From contig NZ_LT706987.1 in the NCBI RefSeq assembly GCF_900155655.1, forward strand, positions 2,523,466-2,587,465: a stretch of 64,000 nucleotides of DNA, given 5' to 3'. Within the stretch, counting starts at the first letter, position 1. Each line of letters begins with the position of its first letter. Below are positions 9,240-52,184 of the stretch, piece after piece. Both the position numbers and the translations under genes were made by a program. Under the pieces are notes generated by a model. The model was not told where the DNA came from, did not search any database, and saw only the letters and a list, made by a program, of their open reading frames with translations. This DNA comes from Prevotella ihumii (GTDB lineage Bacteria; Bacteroidota; Bacteroidia; Bacteroidales; Bacteroidaceae).

Positions 9240-9499
9240 AGGCTGGTTCTATAAATTACCACCGCATATAGTCATTAAATTTTTATGAAATACGTTTTGT
9301 TATCTTTTGGTTTCTTTTTATATAAAACGGGCTGCGCCTCAACAATTCAAACAAGTTTGATTGCATTCGGCTTGCTCCGTTTTTGGTTCAAAATGTAAGT
9401 TCGTTCAGTCGTGTAGCTCGCTACACTCCTTCACTCTCTTGCATTTTGACCTCAAAAATAAGCTCAAAATCTAACAAAGCTAATTTATAGAACCAGCCT
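9240..9499. repeat. F1 MITE-like element, copy A (260 bp)
   Basis: Inverted ends AGGCTGGTTCTATAAATTA (9240-9258) and TAATTTATAGAACCAGCCT (9481-9499). Compared with the 195-bp copies at 46113 and 51990 it carries a 65-bp internal insertion (about 9320-9384). The interior has the palindrome GTAGCTCGCTAC. No ORF of its own. Confidence 0.85.
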
Positions 9500-42538: not shown

Positions 42539-43015
42539 ATGAAAATGGACAAAATAGACAAATTAGACAAAAAGATACTCGGTATCTTGTCACACAACGC
42601 ACGTATTCCTTTCAAAGATGTAGCTGCAGAATGTGGCGTTTCGCGTGCAGCAATCCATCAACGTGTTCAGCATCTCATCGAAAATGGTGTCATCACAGGC
42701 AGCAGTTTCTCTATCAACCCTAAAAGTTTGGGCTATACCACTTGCACCTATGTGGGTCTAAACCTTGAGCGTGGCTCTATGTACAAGGAAGTAGTGGAGC
42801 GCATCAACAAAATTCCTGAAGTGATAGAGTGTCACTTTACAACAGGTCCTTATACCAGTTTGGTGAAGCTTTATGCCAAAGACAACGAACAACTGATGGA
42901 CTTGCTCAACAATAAGTTGCAAACTATCCCAGGTGTAATGTCTACCGAAACACTTATTTCGTTAGAGCAAAGCATTAAGAGAGAAATACCTGTAGCAGGT
43001 GAAGAGGAAGAATAA
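42539..43015 (+). CDS. Lrp/AsnC-family transcriptional regulator
   Basis: 158 aa. N-terminal HTH ('LDKKILGILSHNARIPFKDV', 'GVSRAAIHQRVQHLIENGVI') and C-terminal RAM ligand-binding domain ('VIECHFTTGPYTSLVKLYAK'). Amino-acid or metabolite responsive global or local regulator, probably octameric. An alternative start two codons later (MDKIDKLD) is possible. Ligand and targets unknown; the adjacent peptidase genes are candidates by proximity only. Confidence 0.9.
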   Translation: MKMDKIDKLDKKILGILSHNARIPFKDVAAECGVSRAAIHQRVQHLIENGVITGSSFSINPKSLGYTTCTYVGLNLERGSMYKEVVERINKIPEVIECHFTTGPYTSLVKLYAKDNEQLMDLLNNKLQTIPGVMSTETLISLEQSIKREIPVAGEEEE

Positions 43016-43187
43016 AGGCTGGTTCACAATAAATATATAGATACGAAAACGATAAAACAAAAACTTATAAAACCATTAGTAGCTATTCGACTAAGATATA
43101 ACGCTAAAGCAAAAGCTATTATTTATTAGCAAAATAACCGTTGACCTCTTGATGCTGAAACGTAGTATTGAAAAAAAGTAAATAACA

Positions 43188-45053
43188 ATGAATTACAATA
43201 TTGATGCTTACTTGGAAAAGGTGTACGATGCCTTTCCAGAAAGCAATCATCAACCCATAATAGGACTTGTTACCAACTATAATGATGTTGACGCAACAAT
43301 TCGTGAGGTCTATTATAAGCAAGTAGTAGATGCTGGAGCTACACCTTTGCTCATCCCGCCTATCAACGATGGACGTTTGTTAACAAATATCCTCGACAAG
43401 ATAGACGGACTGATACTTACTGGTGGGGCTGATGTCAACCCGCTTTGGGTGGGCGAAGAACCTGTAAGAGGGCTAAGCAATATCAATGCAAAGCGCGATT
43501 TATCCGAACTTCTTATTACTCGATTGGCTTTCAATCGTCAAATTCCAATCCTCGGAATATGTCGTGGTATTCAGGTTTTGGCTATGGCTTTAGGTGGCAA
43601 AAACCAACAGCACATCTACGATCCTTATATAGAAGTGGAGGAAACTGTAGAGAAAAAGCTTGCCAAAGCAAAGAGTATCACAACCTTGCACGCAGCCAAA
43701 CTGAAACATTCGCAAGATGCTCCGAAGAACGAAGCTACACACAGCGTACGTGTAGAACAAGGTTCGGTGCTACATTCTATCTATAATGAAGATACCATCT
43801 ATGTAAATTCGTTCCACCATCAGGCTGTGAGCGACCCTGGGAAACGATTTAAGGTAACAGGAACAGCCACCGATGGCGTGATAGAATGTATAGAAAGCAC
43901 AGAGTTGAAGCCTATCCTCGGTGTGCAATGGCACCCAGAATGGATGGAGGAAGAGGGATTGAAGCTCTTCCAATGGCTCGTAAATGAGGCTGAGAACTTC
44001 AAACTTGCCAAGCGTTTGCACAACAAAATTCTTACTTTAGATACACATTGCGACACACCTATGTTCTTCCCTCAAGGGGTGGAATTTGGAAAGCGCGACC
44101 CTCGTATATTGTACGATCTCCATAAAATGAGCGAAGGCAGACAAGACGCAGTTACAATGGCGGCTTACTTGCCACAACCTCGCATTGGCGAAACCTTCTC
44201 GTCAAAGATAGATATAGAAGGTCTGAAAAAGTTCAATCCTGAACTCTCTGAGGTGTTAGACAACCTCAGTCCCGAAAAATACACCAATCTTATATTCGAT
44301 AAAATAGAAAAGATAGTGAAGCAAAACAGCAGCTATCTCTCTATTGCACGTACACCTTCCGACCTTTATGAGGACAAGCGAAAGGGCAGAAAAAGCATTA
44401 TGTTTGCCATTGAGAATGGACTTGCATTGGAGCATAAGATAGAGAATGTAAAGCATTTTGCACAACGTGGTGTAACTTACATTACGCTCTGTCACAATGG
44501 CGATAACGACATTTGCGACTCGGCACGTGGAAGTAATATGCACGGAGGTGTGAGCAAATTCGGCATAGAGGTAATACAGGAAATGAACAAGAATGGCATT
44601 ATGGTAGACCTAAGCCACGGCGGAGAAAAGAGTTTCTACGATGCTTTGGAAATTAGTAGCGTACCTATTGTTTGCAGCCATTCCAATTCAAAAGCCTTAT
44701 GCGATGTTCCTCGCAATCTCACCGACGACCAAATGCGTGCCTTGGCTAAAAAGGGGGGTGTAGCACACACAACTTTGTTCAGCGGATTTTTACGTAAAAG
44801 CGTCCATGCAAACATTTTAGACGTGATAAACCACCTTGAACACGCCATCAAAATTATGGGTATCGACCACGTAGGTATAGGTACCGACTTCGATGGCGAC
44901 GGCACTGTGCACGGAATGGCTGATGCAAGCGAAATGATAAACTTAACCAAGCACTTGTTAAAACGCAGATACAGCGAACGCGACATTGAAAAAATATGGG
45001 GCGGAAACTGGCTTCGTGTAATGGCACAAGTACAAGCTGCAAGGAAAAAATAA
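43188..45053 (+). CDS. fusion of C26 glutamine-hydrolase-like domain and M19 membrane-dipeptidase domain
   Basis: 621 aa with no signal peptide. Residues 1-270 are a class I glutamine amidotransferase-like (gamma-glutamyl hydrolase, C26) domain: nucleophile Cys125 in 'ILGICRGIQVLAMALGG' and 'GVQWHPEWMEEEG'. Residues 275-621 are M19 renal-dipeptidase-like: 'LTLDTHCDTPMFFPQG' (HxD), 'GVTYITLCHNGDNDICDS', 'VDLSHGGEKSFYDAL' , 'PIVCSHSNSKALCDVPRN' and 'MGIDHVGIGTDFDGDG'. Together they could cleave gamma-glutamyl compounds then dipeptides (for example from glutathione). Followed by the QC-like gene 15 bp on. Confidence 0.85.
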   Translation: MNYNIDAYLEKVYDAFPESNHQPIIGLVTNYNDVDATIREVYYKQVVDAGATPLLIPPINDGRLLTNILDKIDGLILTGGADVNPLWVGEEPVRGLSNINAKRDLSELLITRLAFNRQIPILGICRGIQVLAMALGGKNQQHIYDPYIEVEETVEKKLAKAKSITTLHAAKLKHSQDAPKNEATHSVRVEQGSVLHSIYNEDTIYVNSFHHQAVSDPGKRFKVTGTATDGVIECIESTELKPILGVQWHPEWMEEEGLKLFQWLVNEAENFKLAKRLHNKILTLDTHCDTPMFFPQGVEFGKRDPRILYDLHKMSEGRQDAVTMAAYLPQPRIGETFSSKIDIEGLKKFNPELSEVLDNLSPEKYTNLIFDKIEKIVKQNSSYLSIARTPSDLYEDKRKGRKSIMFAIENGLALEHKIENVKHFAQRGVTYITLCHNGDNDICDSARGSNMHGGVSKFGIEVIQEMNKNGIMVDLSHGGEKSFYDALEISSVPIVCSHSNSKALCDVPRNLTDDQMRALAKKGGVAHTTLFSGFLRKSVHANILDVINHLEHAIKIMGIDHVGIGTDFDGDGTVHGMADASEMINLTKHLLKRRYSERDIEKIWGGNWLRVMAQVQAARKK

Positions 45054-45068
45054 CAAACCAAAAAGACT

Positions 45069-46088
45069 ATGAATTCGAAACTAAAATTGATAATAGGTTG
45101 TGCTATGATGACTGCCGTAACAAGTTTTGCGTGCAGTTGTAAGGGTCAGAAGGGTGGAGAAACTACCGAAACCACCGACTCGACAAGCATCGCAAAACCT
45201 GTAGGACCTAAGTTTAATCCCGACTCGGCATACGCTTTCACAGCTGCACAATGCGATTTCGGACCTCGTGTAATGAACTCTGCTGCCCACGATAAGTGCG
45301 AAGCGTGGATTATCAGCAAGTTTAAGCAGTATGGGTGTGAAGTGCAAACACAGAAAGCCGACCTCAAAGGCTATGATGGAACTACACTGAAAGCTACCAA
45401 TATTATAGCTTCGTTCAATCCAAAGGCACAGCGTCGCATTATGCTTTGCGCACACTGGGACAGCCGTCCTTGGGCTGACAACGACCCCGACTCTACTAAT
45501 CACCGCAAACCTGTTATGGCTGCCAACGATGGGGCATCAGGTGTGGCAGTGATGATAGAGATAGCTCGACAGTTGCAAGCAGATAGCAGCCTGAATGTAG
45601 GTGTAGACTTTATCTGTTTCGATGCGGAAGATTGGGGCGTTCCACAGTGGGAAACAGCACAGCAAGGGAGCGAGAACAGTTGGGCATTGGGCGCACAATA
45701 CTTCTCTAAAAACCTCCCTCAAGGCTACCAACCCGAATTTGGCATTCTCTTGGATATGGTAGGTGGAGAAGGCGCACAATTCTTTAAGGAAGGCATCTCA
45801 AAGCGTTACGCCCTCAATATTGTAGATAAGGTATGGGAAGCAGCCAGAACAGCAGGCTACGAAAGCTATTTTCCTACGGCAGAAGGTGGTATGATAACCG
45901 ACGACCACGTGCCCATCAATCAGAATGCAAATATCCCTACAATCGACATCATTCCGTATTATGCCGATTGTCAGCAAAGCAATTTTGGTCCTACGTGGCA
46001 CACCATAAACGACACGATGGAGCATATAGACAAGAACACATTGCTTGCCGTGGGGCAAACCGTAATACAAGTGCTCTACTCGCTCTAA
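45069..46088 (+). CDS. M28-family glutaminyl-peptide cyclotransferase-like lipoprotein
   Basis: 339 aa. Probable signal peptide with 'SFACSCKG' (candidate lipidated Cys). M28 zinc motifs: 'LCAHWDSRPWADNDPDS', 'ANDGASGVAVMIEIARQL', 'FICFDAEDWG' and 'GMITDDHVPINQNANIPTID'. 'AHWDSR' and 'FDAEDWG' match glutaminyl cyclases of P. gingivalis and human type, which convert N-terminal Gln to pyroglutamate, rather than aminopeptidases. Periplasmic role: cap proteins whose mature N-terminus is Gln, as for most exported proteins in this window. Probably an operon with the C26-M19 gene. Confidence 0.85.
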   Translation: MNSKLKLIIGCAMMTAVTSFACSCKGQKGGETTETTDSTSIAKPVGPKFNPDSAYAFTAAQCDFGPRVMNSAAHDKCEAWIISKFKQYGCEVQTQKADLKGYDGTTLKATNIIASFNPKAQRRIMLCAHWDSRPWADNDPDSTNHRKPVMAANDGASGVAVMIEIARQLQADSSLNVGVDFICFDAEDWGVPQWETAQQGSENSWALGAQYFSKNLPQGYQPEFGILLDMVGGEGAQFFKEGISKRYALNIVDKVWEAARTAGYESYFPTAEGGMITDDHVPINQNANIPTIDIIPYYADCQQSNFGPTWHTINDTMEHIDKNTLLAVGQTVIQVLYSL

Positions 46089-46112
46089 ACATAGAGAAAC
46101 TTCACCTTACAT

Positions 46113-46307
46113 AGGCTGGTTCTATAAATTACCACCGCATATAGTCATTAAATTTTTATGAAATACGTTTTGTTATCTTTTGGCTTCTTTTTGGTTCAAA
46201 ATGTAAGTTCGTTCAGTCGTGTAGCTCGCTACACTCCTTCACTCTCTTGCATTTTGACCTCAAAAATAAGCTCAAAATCTAACAAAGCTAATTTATAGAA
46301 CCAGCCT
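46113..46307. repeat. F1 MITE-like element, copy B (195 bp)
   Basis: Inverted ends AGGCTGGTTCTATAAATTA and TAATTTATAGAACCAGCCT, central GTAGCTCGCTAC. Flanked by TA on both sides. Confidence 0.88.
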
Positions 46308-46314
46308 ATAATAA

Positions 46315-46366
46315 GGAGGCACCTTTTAGGTTTCTATTCATAGAACCTAAAAGATGCCTTTTTTCG
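46315..46366 (+). terminator. rho-independent terminator after the QC-like gene
   Basis: AGGCACCTTTTAGGTT pairs with AACCTAAAAGATGCCTTTTTT; separated from the gene by F1 copy B. Confidence 0.8.
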
Positions 46367-46389
46367 GCTCTATAGGTTAAGGTTCTAAA

Positions 46390-46685
46390 ATAGAACAATC
46401 GGAGAAAACAAGTGAAAACCGAATATAACGACATTTAGACCAATGAAAACAAAATATGAGTAGTTTTATAACCATTTATCTATCAACGAGTTATAAACAC
46501 GAAAATATAAGTTTCCCAAAGTTCAACTTTGAGCGTGCAAAACATATATGTATTAGGTGGCAAAAGTTGAACTTTGGGAAGCTCATACCTATATGTTTTA
46601 CAGCCTCAAAGTTATGGTTTGGAATTTAGAACATTATGCTATTAAGACCTAAAAATCGTTGCTGAAGAAGAATAGAACAATCATA
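46390..46685. repeat. F4 palindrome element (46.5 kb copy)
   Basis: Contains CAAAGTTCAACTTTG, AAACATATATGTATT, AAAGTTGAACTTTG and further half sites between AATAGAACAATC at ~46392 and GAATAGAACAATC at ~46671. Confidence 0.65.
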
Positions 46686-46883
46686 AACCCAAATCAATCA
46701 TTAGCCCGCAAAGGCTTTTTAAAGCGTTTAGCTGTTATGCTTTTCTTCGTCTTTGCACCTTATTTTGGCTCTTTTCGTTTGTTTTTTCAGTTGTTTAGCT
46801 CGCTAAACGTCTTCAAAAACAACCAAAAATAGCTCAAAATAAGTGCACAAATCTCGAAGAAGTCTAACGACCGATTTGGGTTA
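46686..46883. repeat. F2 element, full copy, inverted
   Basis: Ends AACCCAAATCAATCATTAGC and the inverse TCTAACGACCGATTTGGGTT; near-identical to 23622-23818 in opposite orientation. Confidence 0.85.
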
Positions 46884-46952
46884 AAAAGCTAATCAAAAGC
46901 CTCAACAAAACATATTGATATGTGTTTTCTACCTCGATACATACCTAAAAAG

Positions 46953-47282
46953 TGTGGATAAGTGTGTGGATAACCCTACTAATAACCCCTGTATAACCCT
47001 TTTATAAACATATACTTATCCACCAAGATGGGTGGATAACCCCAAGAGTGTGGATATTAACAAAGTTATTAACGGGGTTTTAGGGAAGTTTTACACAAGT
47101 TTTACGCCGAAAAAGTTATAAACTTATTATCTTTGCATTAGAATGTGGAAATGTGGATAACTATTGTATAGTGTCTGAAAATCAATAAGTAAGCTTAAAA
47201 ACTGAATGTTGATAACTCAAACTCTAAAGTTTACAACTTCATACGCAAGAAAATCGATAAAAAGATATAAACACTATCCACA
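46953..47282. other. candidate oriC: cluster of DnaA boxes
   Basis: Exact TGTGGATAA at 46953, 46965 and 47152. One-mismatch boxes: TTATCCACC (47016), GGTGGATAA (47031), TGTGGATAT (47049), TGTTGATAA (47208), CTATCCACA (47274). Eight boxes in 330 bp, followed by an AT-rich stretch (47283-47342, almost only A and T) that could be the unwinding element. A TATCTTTG box at 47128 would also give a promoter. The nearest gene, the DUF3108 protein at 47367, is not a usual oriC marker. dnaA itself is not in this window. Confidence 0.6.
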
Positions 47283-47366
47283 GCATATCATATACAATAT
47301 TCCTTTTTAAAATAAAAAAGAAAAGAATATATATATGATATAATGAAATTCAAAAATAGGACGATC

Positions 47367-48176
47367 ATGAAACAACTGAAGATTTATTTAATAGCCTTGA
47401 TGGCACTTATAGGTGTAAGCACATCGGCTCAGTGTACTTACAAGAACACAGCTTTCAACAGCGGAGAATACTTAACGTACAACCTTTATTACAATTGGAA
47501 ATTTGTGTGGGTGAAGGCTGGTATGGCATCGTGGTACACAGTATCGTCAGTATATCAAGGCAAACCTGCCTATCGTGCATCGCTCACCACACGAGGTAAT
47601 GGTAAATTGGACGATTATTTTGTGCTTCGCGATACGCTACTCTGCTATAATACAAAGGATATGGCACCGCTCTACTTCCGCAAAGGTGCAAAGGAAGGCA
47701 AACGATATACCGTGGACGAAGTGTTTTATAGTTATCCTAATGGGAAGTCGCACATCAAGCAGCATCGCATAGACAATGACGGCAAACACCACTGGAAAGA
47801 TGTTTCGCCTAACGAGTGTGTGTTTGATATGATGAGTATATTCCTACGTGCACGCAGTTTCGACCCTACAAGTTGGAAAAAAGGCTTTGTGGTCAATTTC
47901 CCAATAGTTGACGGAAACAGTATGAATGCTGCACACCTCACCTACTCAGGCAAAAGGTTTATTAAAGCAGATAATGGTATAAAATACCGTTGTTTGAAAC
48001 TTTCGTATAGCGAATATGAAAATAAAAAATGGCGAACCATTGCCGATTTTTACGTTACCGATGATGCTAACCATATTCCCATTCGTTTGGATATGCACCT
48101 AAAGTTTGGTTCTGCCAAAGCCTTCCTTGTATCGATGAAAGGCATTAGATATAAGATAGATTCGCAAGTGAAGTAG
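47367..48176 (+). CDS. exported DUF3108-domain protein
   Basis: 269 aa from the ATG at 47367 (MKQLKIYLIALMAL); the earlier ATG at 47343 gives a less regular signal peptide. Signal peptide ending TSAQ. Sequence 'SGEYLTYNLYYNWKFVWVKA' and 'YHIT-like VTDDANHIPIRLDM' are typical of DUF3108, a periplasmic or outer-membrane beta fold. Function unknown. It lies just after the candidate oriC. Confidence 0.75.
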   Translation: MKQLKIYLIALMALIGVSTSAQCTYKNTAFNSGEYLTYNLYYNWKFVWVKAGMASWYTVSSVYQGKPAYRASLTTRGNGKLDDYFVLRDTLLCYNTKDMAPLYFRKGAKEGKRYTVDEVFYSYPNGKSHIKQHRIDNDGKHHWKDVSPNECVFDMMSIFLRARSFDPTSWKKGFVVNFPIVDGNSMNAAHLTYSGKRFIKADNGIKYRCLKLSYSEYENKKWRTIADFYVTDDANHIPIRLDMHLKFGSAKAFLVSMKGIRYKIDSQVK

Positions 48177-51989: not shown

Positions 51990-52184
51990 AGGCTGGTTCT
52001 ATAAATTAGCTTTGTTAGATTTTGAGCTTATTTTTGAGGTCAAAATGCAAGAGCGTGAAGGAGTGTAGCGAGCTACACGACTGAACGAACTTACATTTTG
52101 AACCAAAAAGAAGCCAAAAAATAACAAAACGTATTTCATAAAAATTTAATGACTATATGCGGTGGTAATTTATATAACCAGCCT
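51990..52184. repeat. F1 MITE-like element, copy C (195 bp, inverted)
   Basis: Complement of copy B, with one mismatch in the right end (TATAACC for TAGAACC). Flanked by TA. The rest of 52185-52490 is AT-rich, with a TATCTTTG -7 box at 52503. Confidence 0.87.

Follow-up and report, generated by a model that had tools for sequence, protein, structure and literature searches.

At oriC, the replication origin of E. coli, strong DnaA boxes are combined with weaker phased sites, and an A+T-rich region for unwinding flanks them on one side. Adjacency of a bacterial oriC to dnaA is common but not required. In Bacteroidetes, oriC is commonly located far from dnaA, according to a report on Prevotella intermedia OMA14, which placed the predicted oriC of the first chromosome at 1,498,452-1,498,927, at a GC-skew switch and far from dnaA (PMC4755523). 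A basal unwinding system, consisting of a DnaA box, a short spacer and DnaA-trios, is known from B. subtilis, with predictions extending to 1755 of 2070 species; by its rule, three or more NAN triplets come within 16 bp after a DnaA box (PMC8287927). No experimentally mapped Prevotella origin was found in the open-licence literature that we searched.

Here we describe a region, 46953-47342, that almost certainly serves as the main-chromosome oriC in a bacterium of the Prevotella type. It is a known kind of object, an ordinary and expected part of a chromosome. Like the OMA14 oriC, as described in that report, it contains multiple DnaA boxes, lies far from dnaA in a member of the same genus, and coincides with a GC-skew switch, seen in our case in three relatives. 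The OMA14 origin is presented there as a software prediction for one species, whereas the present core was traced genus-wide; the two, compared by description only, are expected to be homologous. With E. coli oriC the locus shares the strong boxes, the weaker phased sites and the one-sided A+T-rich region. It differs from E. coli oriC in its neighbours and box order, and an IHF-type site was not established at the core: the sequence ATCAA at about 47181 is conserved in our alignment but lacks the rest of the IHF consensus.

A cluster of DnaA boxes beside an A+T-rich tract

The window, i.e. the whole stretch of 64,000 nucleotides that was analysed, corresponds to C1:2523466-2587465 (plus strand) of a 3.32-Mb genome in 19 contigs. 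In it, a peptidase M28 gene ending at 46088 and a DUF3108 open reading frame starting at 47343 are separated by 1254 non-coding bases, and the boxes and the A+T tract occupy the last 390 bp of this stretch. The original prediction described the region as non-coding, in agreement with our finding that no listed ORF of at least 80 amino acids overlaps 46115-47342. Its figure of about 50% A+T for the intergenic DNA has to be corrected: the G+C content is 32%, i.e. more A+T-rich, compared to 41.8% for the window. No match to an Rfam family was obtained in the window, and no similar DNA was found in the plasmid collection searched. The dnaA gene is not adjacent; it is found at C1:1593038, at a distance of 977 kb.

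DnaA boxes were scanned for on both strands, allowing at most one mismatch to TTATCCACA. Between 46953 and 47282 (330 bp) the scan returned exactly eight boxes, three of them exact, as many as had been claimed, and the predicted stretch of about 60 bp composed almost only of A and T follows them with 15% G+C. The assertion that such a density exceeds chance also held: when the 1254-bp intergenic stretch was dinucleotide-shuffled 3000 times, the mean was 0.37 boxes and the maximum 3 in any 330 bp, and three exact boxes were never obtained (0/3000). The locus thus presents, in non-coding DNA, a box cluster above chance, as expected of a bacterial oriC. Genome-wide, TTATCCACA is not enriched (51 exact sites, compared to 68 for the reversed pattern). 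Among these 51, the putative oriC contains the only cluster of three, and the sole other pair of exact boxes within 500 bp is located at C1:2097375/2097432.

Table 1. Features at the putative origin, in window coordinates. Fractions give the sequences of the 33-row alignment that carry a box with at most one mismatch at that column, unless stated otherwise.
Feature	Position	Strand	Conservation or basis
Putative oriC: DnaA-box region and A+T-rich unwinding region (unwinding side right)	46953..47342	+	
First exact DnaA box of a head-to-tail pair with 12-bp phasing	46953..46961	-	22/33
Exact DnaA box, second of the pair	46965..46973	-	18/33
Pair of degenerate ATAACC repeats resembling boxes, in the same 11-12 bp phase	46977..46999	-	Sequence reading and alignment consensus
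DnaA box, 1 mismatch	47016..47024	+	20/33
DnaA box, 1 mismatch	47031..47039	-	Column not conserved, <5/33
DnaA box, 1 mismatch	47049..47057	-	7/33
27-bp block AAAAGNTATAAACTTATTANNTTTGCA	47111..47137	+	Near-invariant in the alignment
Exact DnaA box, the most conserved one	47152..47160	-	32/33, 25 exact
DnaA box, 1 mismatch	47207..47215	-	19/33
DnaA box, 1 mismatch, adjoining the A+T-rich tract	47274..47282	+	8/33 and 5/33 at two adjacent columns
A+T-rich tract, putative duplex unwinding element, 15% G+C	47283..47342	.	11-26% G+C in 33 sequences
DUF3108 protein gene, right-hand neighbour reading away; outside the origin	47343..48176	+	Pfam PF11306

The number of boxes with at most one mismatch ranges from 3 to 10 per sequence in the alignment, three relatives having only three. 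The degenerate repeats, which are presumed from their sequence to be low-affinity DnaA sites, are matched by such boxes at nearby columns in just 9/33 and 5/33 sequences. At 47049..47057 the consensus of the relatives is the palindrome-like GGATATCCACA, and a plus-strand box is found five columns further on in 19/33. The rightmost box, a weaker site in most relatives, has the orientation expected for the basal unwinding system, and the sequences lacking a box at its two columns carry weaker sites there.

This anatomy suggests how the region would work. DnaA would occupy the strong boxes at 46953, 46965 and 47152, and spread from them over the weaker, 11-12 bp phased sites until the filament arrives at the box at 47274, which points at the A+T-rich tract. 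There it would melt the duplex and capture one strand, upon which the replicative helicase would be loaded and two forks would depart in opposite directions.

A dense set of boxes far from dnaA might also act as a DnaA reservoir, of the datA or DARS type, binding or reloading DnaA and thereby timing initiation at an origin located elsewhere. We consider this very unlikely, since the genome offers no second triple cluster of exact boxes to serve as that origin, and since a conserved A+T-rich tract lies next to an outward-pointing box; the skew data presented below argue in the same direction.

A conserved core with changing neighbours

A blastn search with the 414-bp stretch gave matches in 59 of 100 genus genomes, the own genome included (36 of the 51 good ones). 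Relatives were represented by 33 loci, the 29 best foreign genus places by blastn and four named contigs (P. corporis, P. falsenii and two MAGs), which could be aligned over 275-417 bp of non-coding DNA at 62-70% identity. Two of these loci are the same contig (L106 = L005), so that 32 relatives are distinct; the 33-row alignment consists of these and the window, with L106 and L102 (the window again) left out. With 246 bp, the core (47045-47290) of the window is marginally longer than that of the 32 distinct relatives, where it spans 242-245 bp.

A sequence-only model, R1, was built from a 32-row alignment, A2, from which L109 was additionally left out, and used to search 100 genus genomes, each at least 95% complete. 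It matched 90/100 at E <= 0.01 and 85/100 at E <= 1e-9, figures that describe the genus and are no independent test, as the set includes the own genome and many of those that supplied rows. Stray second matches reach 9e-6, so that the five weak genomes are doubtful and at noise level, and R1 found no match in 10/100. In most genomes there is one strong copy of the core, in line with the expectation that a bacterial oriC occurs once per main chromosome and is conserved in relatives.

Three genomes depart from this picture in their own ways. G251, a two-contig member of the genus, has no R1 match, and its origin may differ or have diverged. G044, with a listed contamination of 2%, has three copies of the core on contigs C13, C26 and C30, which could mean mixed genomes or several origins. 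In the single-contig G117 the match is split between C1:1-68 and 3454457-3454626, near both contig ends, and the contig appears to have been cut open inside the origin core.

The genes around the core were compared at 59 genus loci (29 from blastn and 30 from the R1 search, the own locus included and some genomes counted twice). At all 59 the gene on the right points away from the core. By Pfam it is DUF3108 in the window and close relatives (18 loci) and nadA, encoding quinolinate synthase, elsewhere in the genus (41 loci), with no locus having both or neither; the nadA of the own genome is located away from the core, at C1:316515. The left-hand neighbours vary and include glycosyltransferase 9, the ribonucleotide reductase small chain, cyclophilin and others. 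Since the neighbours change while the core stays, what is conserved is the DNA itself, which is not tied to one gene. The reverse comparison was made with 80 named DUF3108 contigs: only four (L002-L005) have at least six boxes in the 500 bp upstream of the gene, and the other 76, among them L072 with just 29 bp of upstream sequence, have at most two, so that a box cluster is lacking where DUF3108 occurs without the core. Among the named contigs found, which may miss nearer relatives, the DUF3108 proteins of P. corporis and P. falsenii are the closest to that of the window (74% each).

The constant orientation of the right-hand gene could be taken to mean that the core is the regulatory region of this gene, with DUF3108 or nadA under the control of DnaA or some other factor. 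The two genes that follow the core are unrelated, though, and regulation alone would explain neither the conserved array of boxes, about 330 bp long, nor the skew switch. As the sole function of the core, we regard it as extremely unlikely.

Several repeat elements crowd the left edge of the origin. MITE-like repeats, about 190-260 bp long and bounded by inverted ends that match (GGCTGGTTCTATAAATTA), are found at 46111-46309, and also at 9241-9498 and 51991-52183; further inverted-repeat families are represented by AAAGTTCAACTTTG palindromes at 46495-46598 and by CCCAAATCGGTCGTTAGAC-type ends at 46686-46882. The AsnC/M19/M28 gene block on the left side of the origin (42539-46088 in the window) is flipped with respect to the origin in L004 (L004:979-4568), a rearrangement near the edge of the origin.

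GC skew and other types of origin

GC skew was sampled in three relatives with long contigs, G045, G084 and G075 (core contigs of 3.33, 1.97 and 2.33 Mb, one strong copy of the core per genome), using 20 blocks of 20 kb from each. The resolution is the sampling step of 98-166 kb, and the terminus was assumed to be opposite; G024, G010, G016, G061 and other relatives with long contigs are outside this sample. In G045, the strand-corrected third-position contrast at the core, 0.210, was the maximum (permutation p 0.0002), with the highest values at 2.67-2.83 Mb and the core at 2.764 Mb. The contrast in G084 was 0.133 at the core (0.272 Mb) compared to a maximum of 0.138 at 0.31-0.39 Mb (permutation 0/5000), and the plain skew peaked at 0.22-0.30 Mb. 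For G075, the value at the core, 0.055, was again the maximum (permutation p 0.039; highest values at 0.60-0.70 Mb, core at 0.610 Mb). A GC-skew switch therefore coincides with the core in 3/3 sampled relatives, within the sampling step, with 5-10% of all positions in each relative scoring as high as the core. A DnaA reservoir would not be expected at this place.

The own contig was sampled in 40 spaced blocks and the window. GC skew of this genome had been proposed as a check, and the outcome is weak: the plain skew gave no signal near the site; the strand-corrected third-position skew peaked at 2.50-2.53 Mb, and the contrast at the site (2.571 Mb) ranked among the top 2.9% of positions (permutation p 0.097). 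Both were obtained from spaced blocks of a gapped scaffold. Two of the first 20 blocks contain N stretches of 1-2 kb and the order of the scaffold is not to be trusted, so that we give the skew of the own genome little weight either way. Gene-strand bias, tried as another marker, was uninformative in 3/4 genomes; in G075 its peak, at 480-580 kb, was near the position of the core (610 kb).

Two chromosomes can be present in Prevotella species, and the OMA14 report calls the origin of the second one unknown (PMC4755523), which raises the question of whether the core might be a second-chromosome origin, or the origin of a plasmid or integrative element. In G084, the larger contig (1.97 vs 0.71 Mb) carries the strong match to the core, and in G010 and G075 the core is on the contig holding most of the assembly. 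Scanning six neighbouring ORFs with Pfam revealed no Rep family, and the two Rep_3 genes of the genome are elsewhere, at C1:261036 and C1:2233933; the combination of a Rep gene with iterons beside it, typical of the Rep_3/iteron type, was thus not found at the core. The probability of such an origin is in our view close to nil.

One of the Rep_3 loci deserves a comment. In L162 (G000:C1:259536-262988), the Rep_3 match starts at 1501, with 22-bp iterons just upstream (L162:1097-1206), and similar 22-bp repeats occur near Rep_3 genes on G597:C2, a contig of 1.43 Mb in a genome of two contigs, and on G010:C3. Judging from this arrangement, loci of the L162 type are candidate plasmid-type origins, perhaps of second chromosomes. 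As a second-chromosome origin, the Rep_3/iteron locus of G597:C2 was not supported by the skew, the contrast being -0.005 and the best position 1.13-1.17 Mb (16 samples, the last 0.3 Mb of the contig lying outside the sample).

Taken together, the conservation of the core amid changing neighbours, the skew switch in three relatives, the ordered boxes with their A+T tract and the single strong copy in most genomes all support the original prediction of a chromosomal origin.

The promoter-like block, the putative unwinding region and the origin in Bacteroidales

The 27-bp block was found as an exact match in 96/299 genus genomes, once each except in G044, and was absent from 203/299; its reversed control was never found in the 299. 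Among 295 order genomes only one, our own, contains it. The invariance seen in the alignment is overstated, as the best blastn places and four close named contigs supplied the rows. On its right the block ends in TAnnTTTG, the Bacteroidetes -7 element, the two n being where copies differ. A TTTG 21-23 bp further upstream, a possible -33 element, is present in 16/33 sequences and missing in the window and 16 others. The first two features would fit regulation of the neighbouring gene, and the last one speaks against it. A scan for sigma-70-type promoters and terminators gave no excess over shuffles. Returning to the origin, the core may well combine origin function with promoter activity, and the block may also drive transcription rightward through the tract into the neighbouring gene. 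Its conservation, well beyond that of a promoter element, suggests that the block may have a second role in the origin.

An A+T-rich tract, the putative unwinding region, lies beside the last box in 33/33 sequences, with a median of 18% G+C. The arrangement resembles the basal unwinding system in that the rightmost box is followed by a 4-bp spacer in 33/33, and then by triplets with a middle T (3'-NAN-5' on the other strand). Runs of at least three DnaA-trios were counted in 25/33 and of at least four in 18/33 (17 in the count to which the shuffles below refer), the first two triplets being fixed by the anchor. The middle T is present in 25/33 in the third triplet and in 21/33 in the fourth, compared to 4-9/33 at the flanking bases. 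Shuffled tails gave a mean of 18.3/33 for runs of three (max 29) and of 9.8 for runs of four (max 20). Unlike what the rule calls for, the window's own copy has two triplets in the conserved register; a run further right would, as read from the letters, pass a loose trio rule. The signal for a trio-type unwinding module at the right end of the core is therefore modest and suggestive only.

In the window, the tract is also a long inverted repeat with a DNA hairpin z of -5.5 (-6.1 in a repeat run), weaker in the few relatives that have it. As a conserved part of the origin the hairpin was rejected, as z fell below -2 in 7/33 sequences (window included) and in 6/31 control upstream regions.

Searching 60 genomes of the order with R1 gave any match in 19/60, the own genome included, with one strong foreign match (G326, 1.1e-9). 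Among 14 foreign order loci, nadA is immediately to the right and in the same orientation in 6/14 and not in 8/14, and all six belong to the matches that extend to the model's right end. Because of this nadA adjacency, some of the weak matches are probably true origins and others probably noise, and the placement of oriC beside nadA may be old in Bacteroidales. No statement of this pairing was found in the literature searched; the indicator-gene tables of Ori-Finder/DoriC may list it. It is tempting to speculate that Bacteroidales have a common, vertically inherited oriC, ancestrally beside nadA, with the promoter-like block belonging to the initiation machinery and not to any one gene, and that the group to which the window belongs swapped nadA for DUF3108 through a break at the edge of the origin, leaving the origin of about 390 bp and its internal promoter intact. 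This scenario is tentative, and we consider it possible rather than probable.

Prevotella is a major human and rumen genus whose origin has been little studied. A genus-wide core model with fixed anatomy would place origins in draft genomes and metagenome bins, for use e.g. in growth-rate estimates from coverage, and the core gives a defined fragment for testing. Less ordinary about this origin are an anatomy that is fixed across the genus, the promoter-like block, and the fact that the neighbouring gene was naturally exchanged, a case of an origin kept intact while the gene beside it changed.
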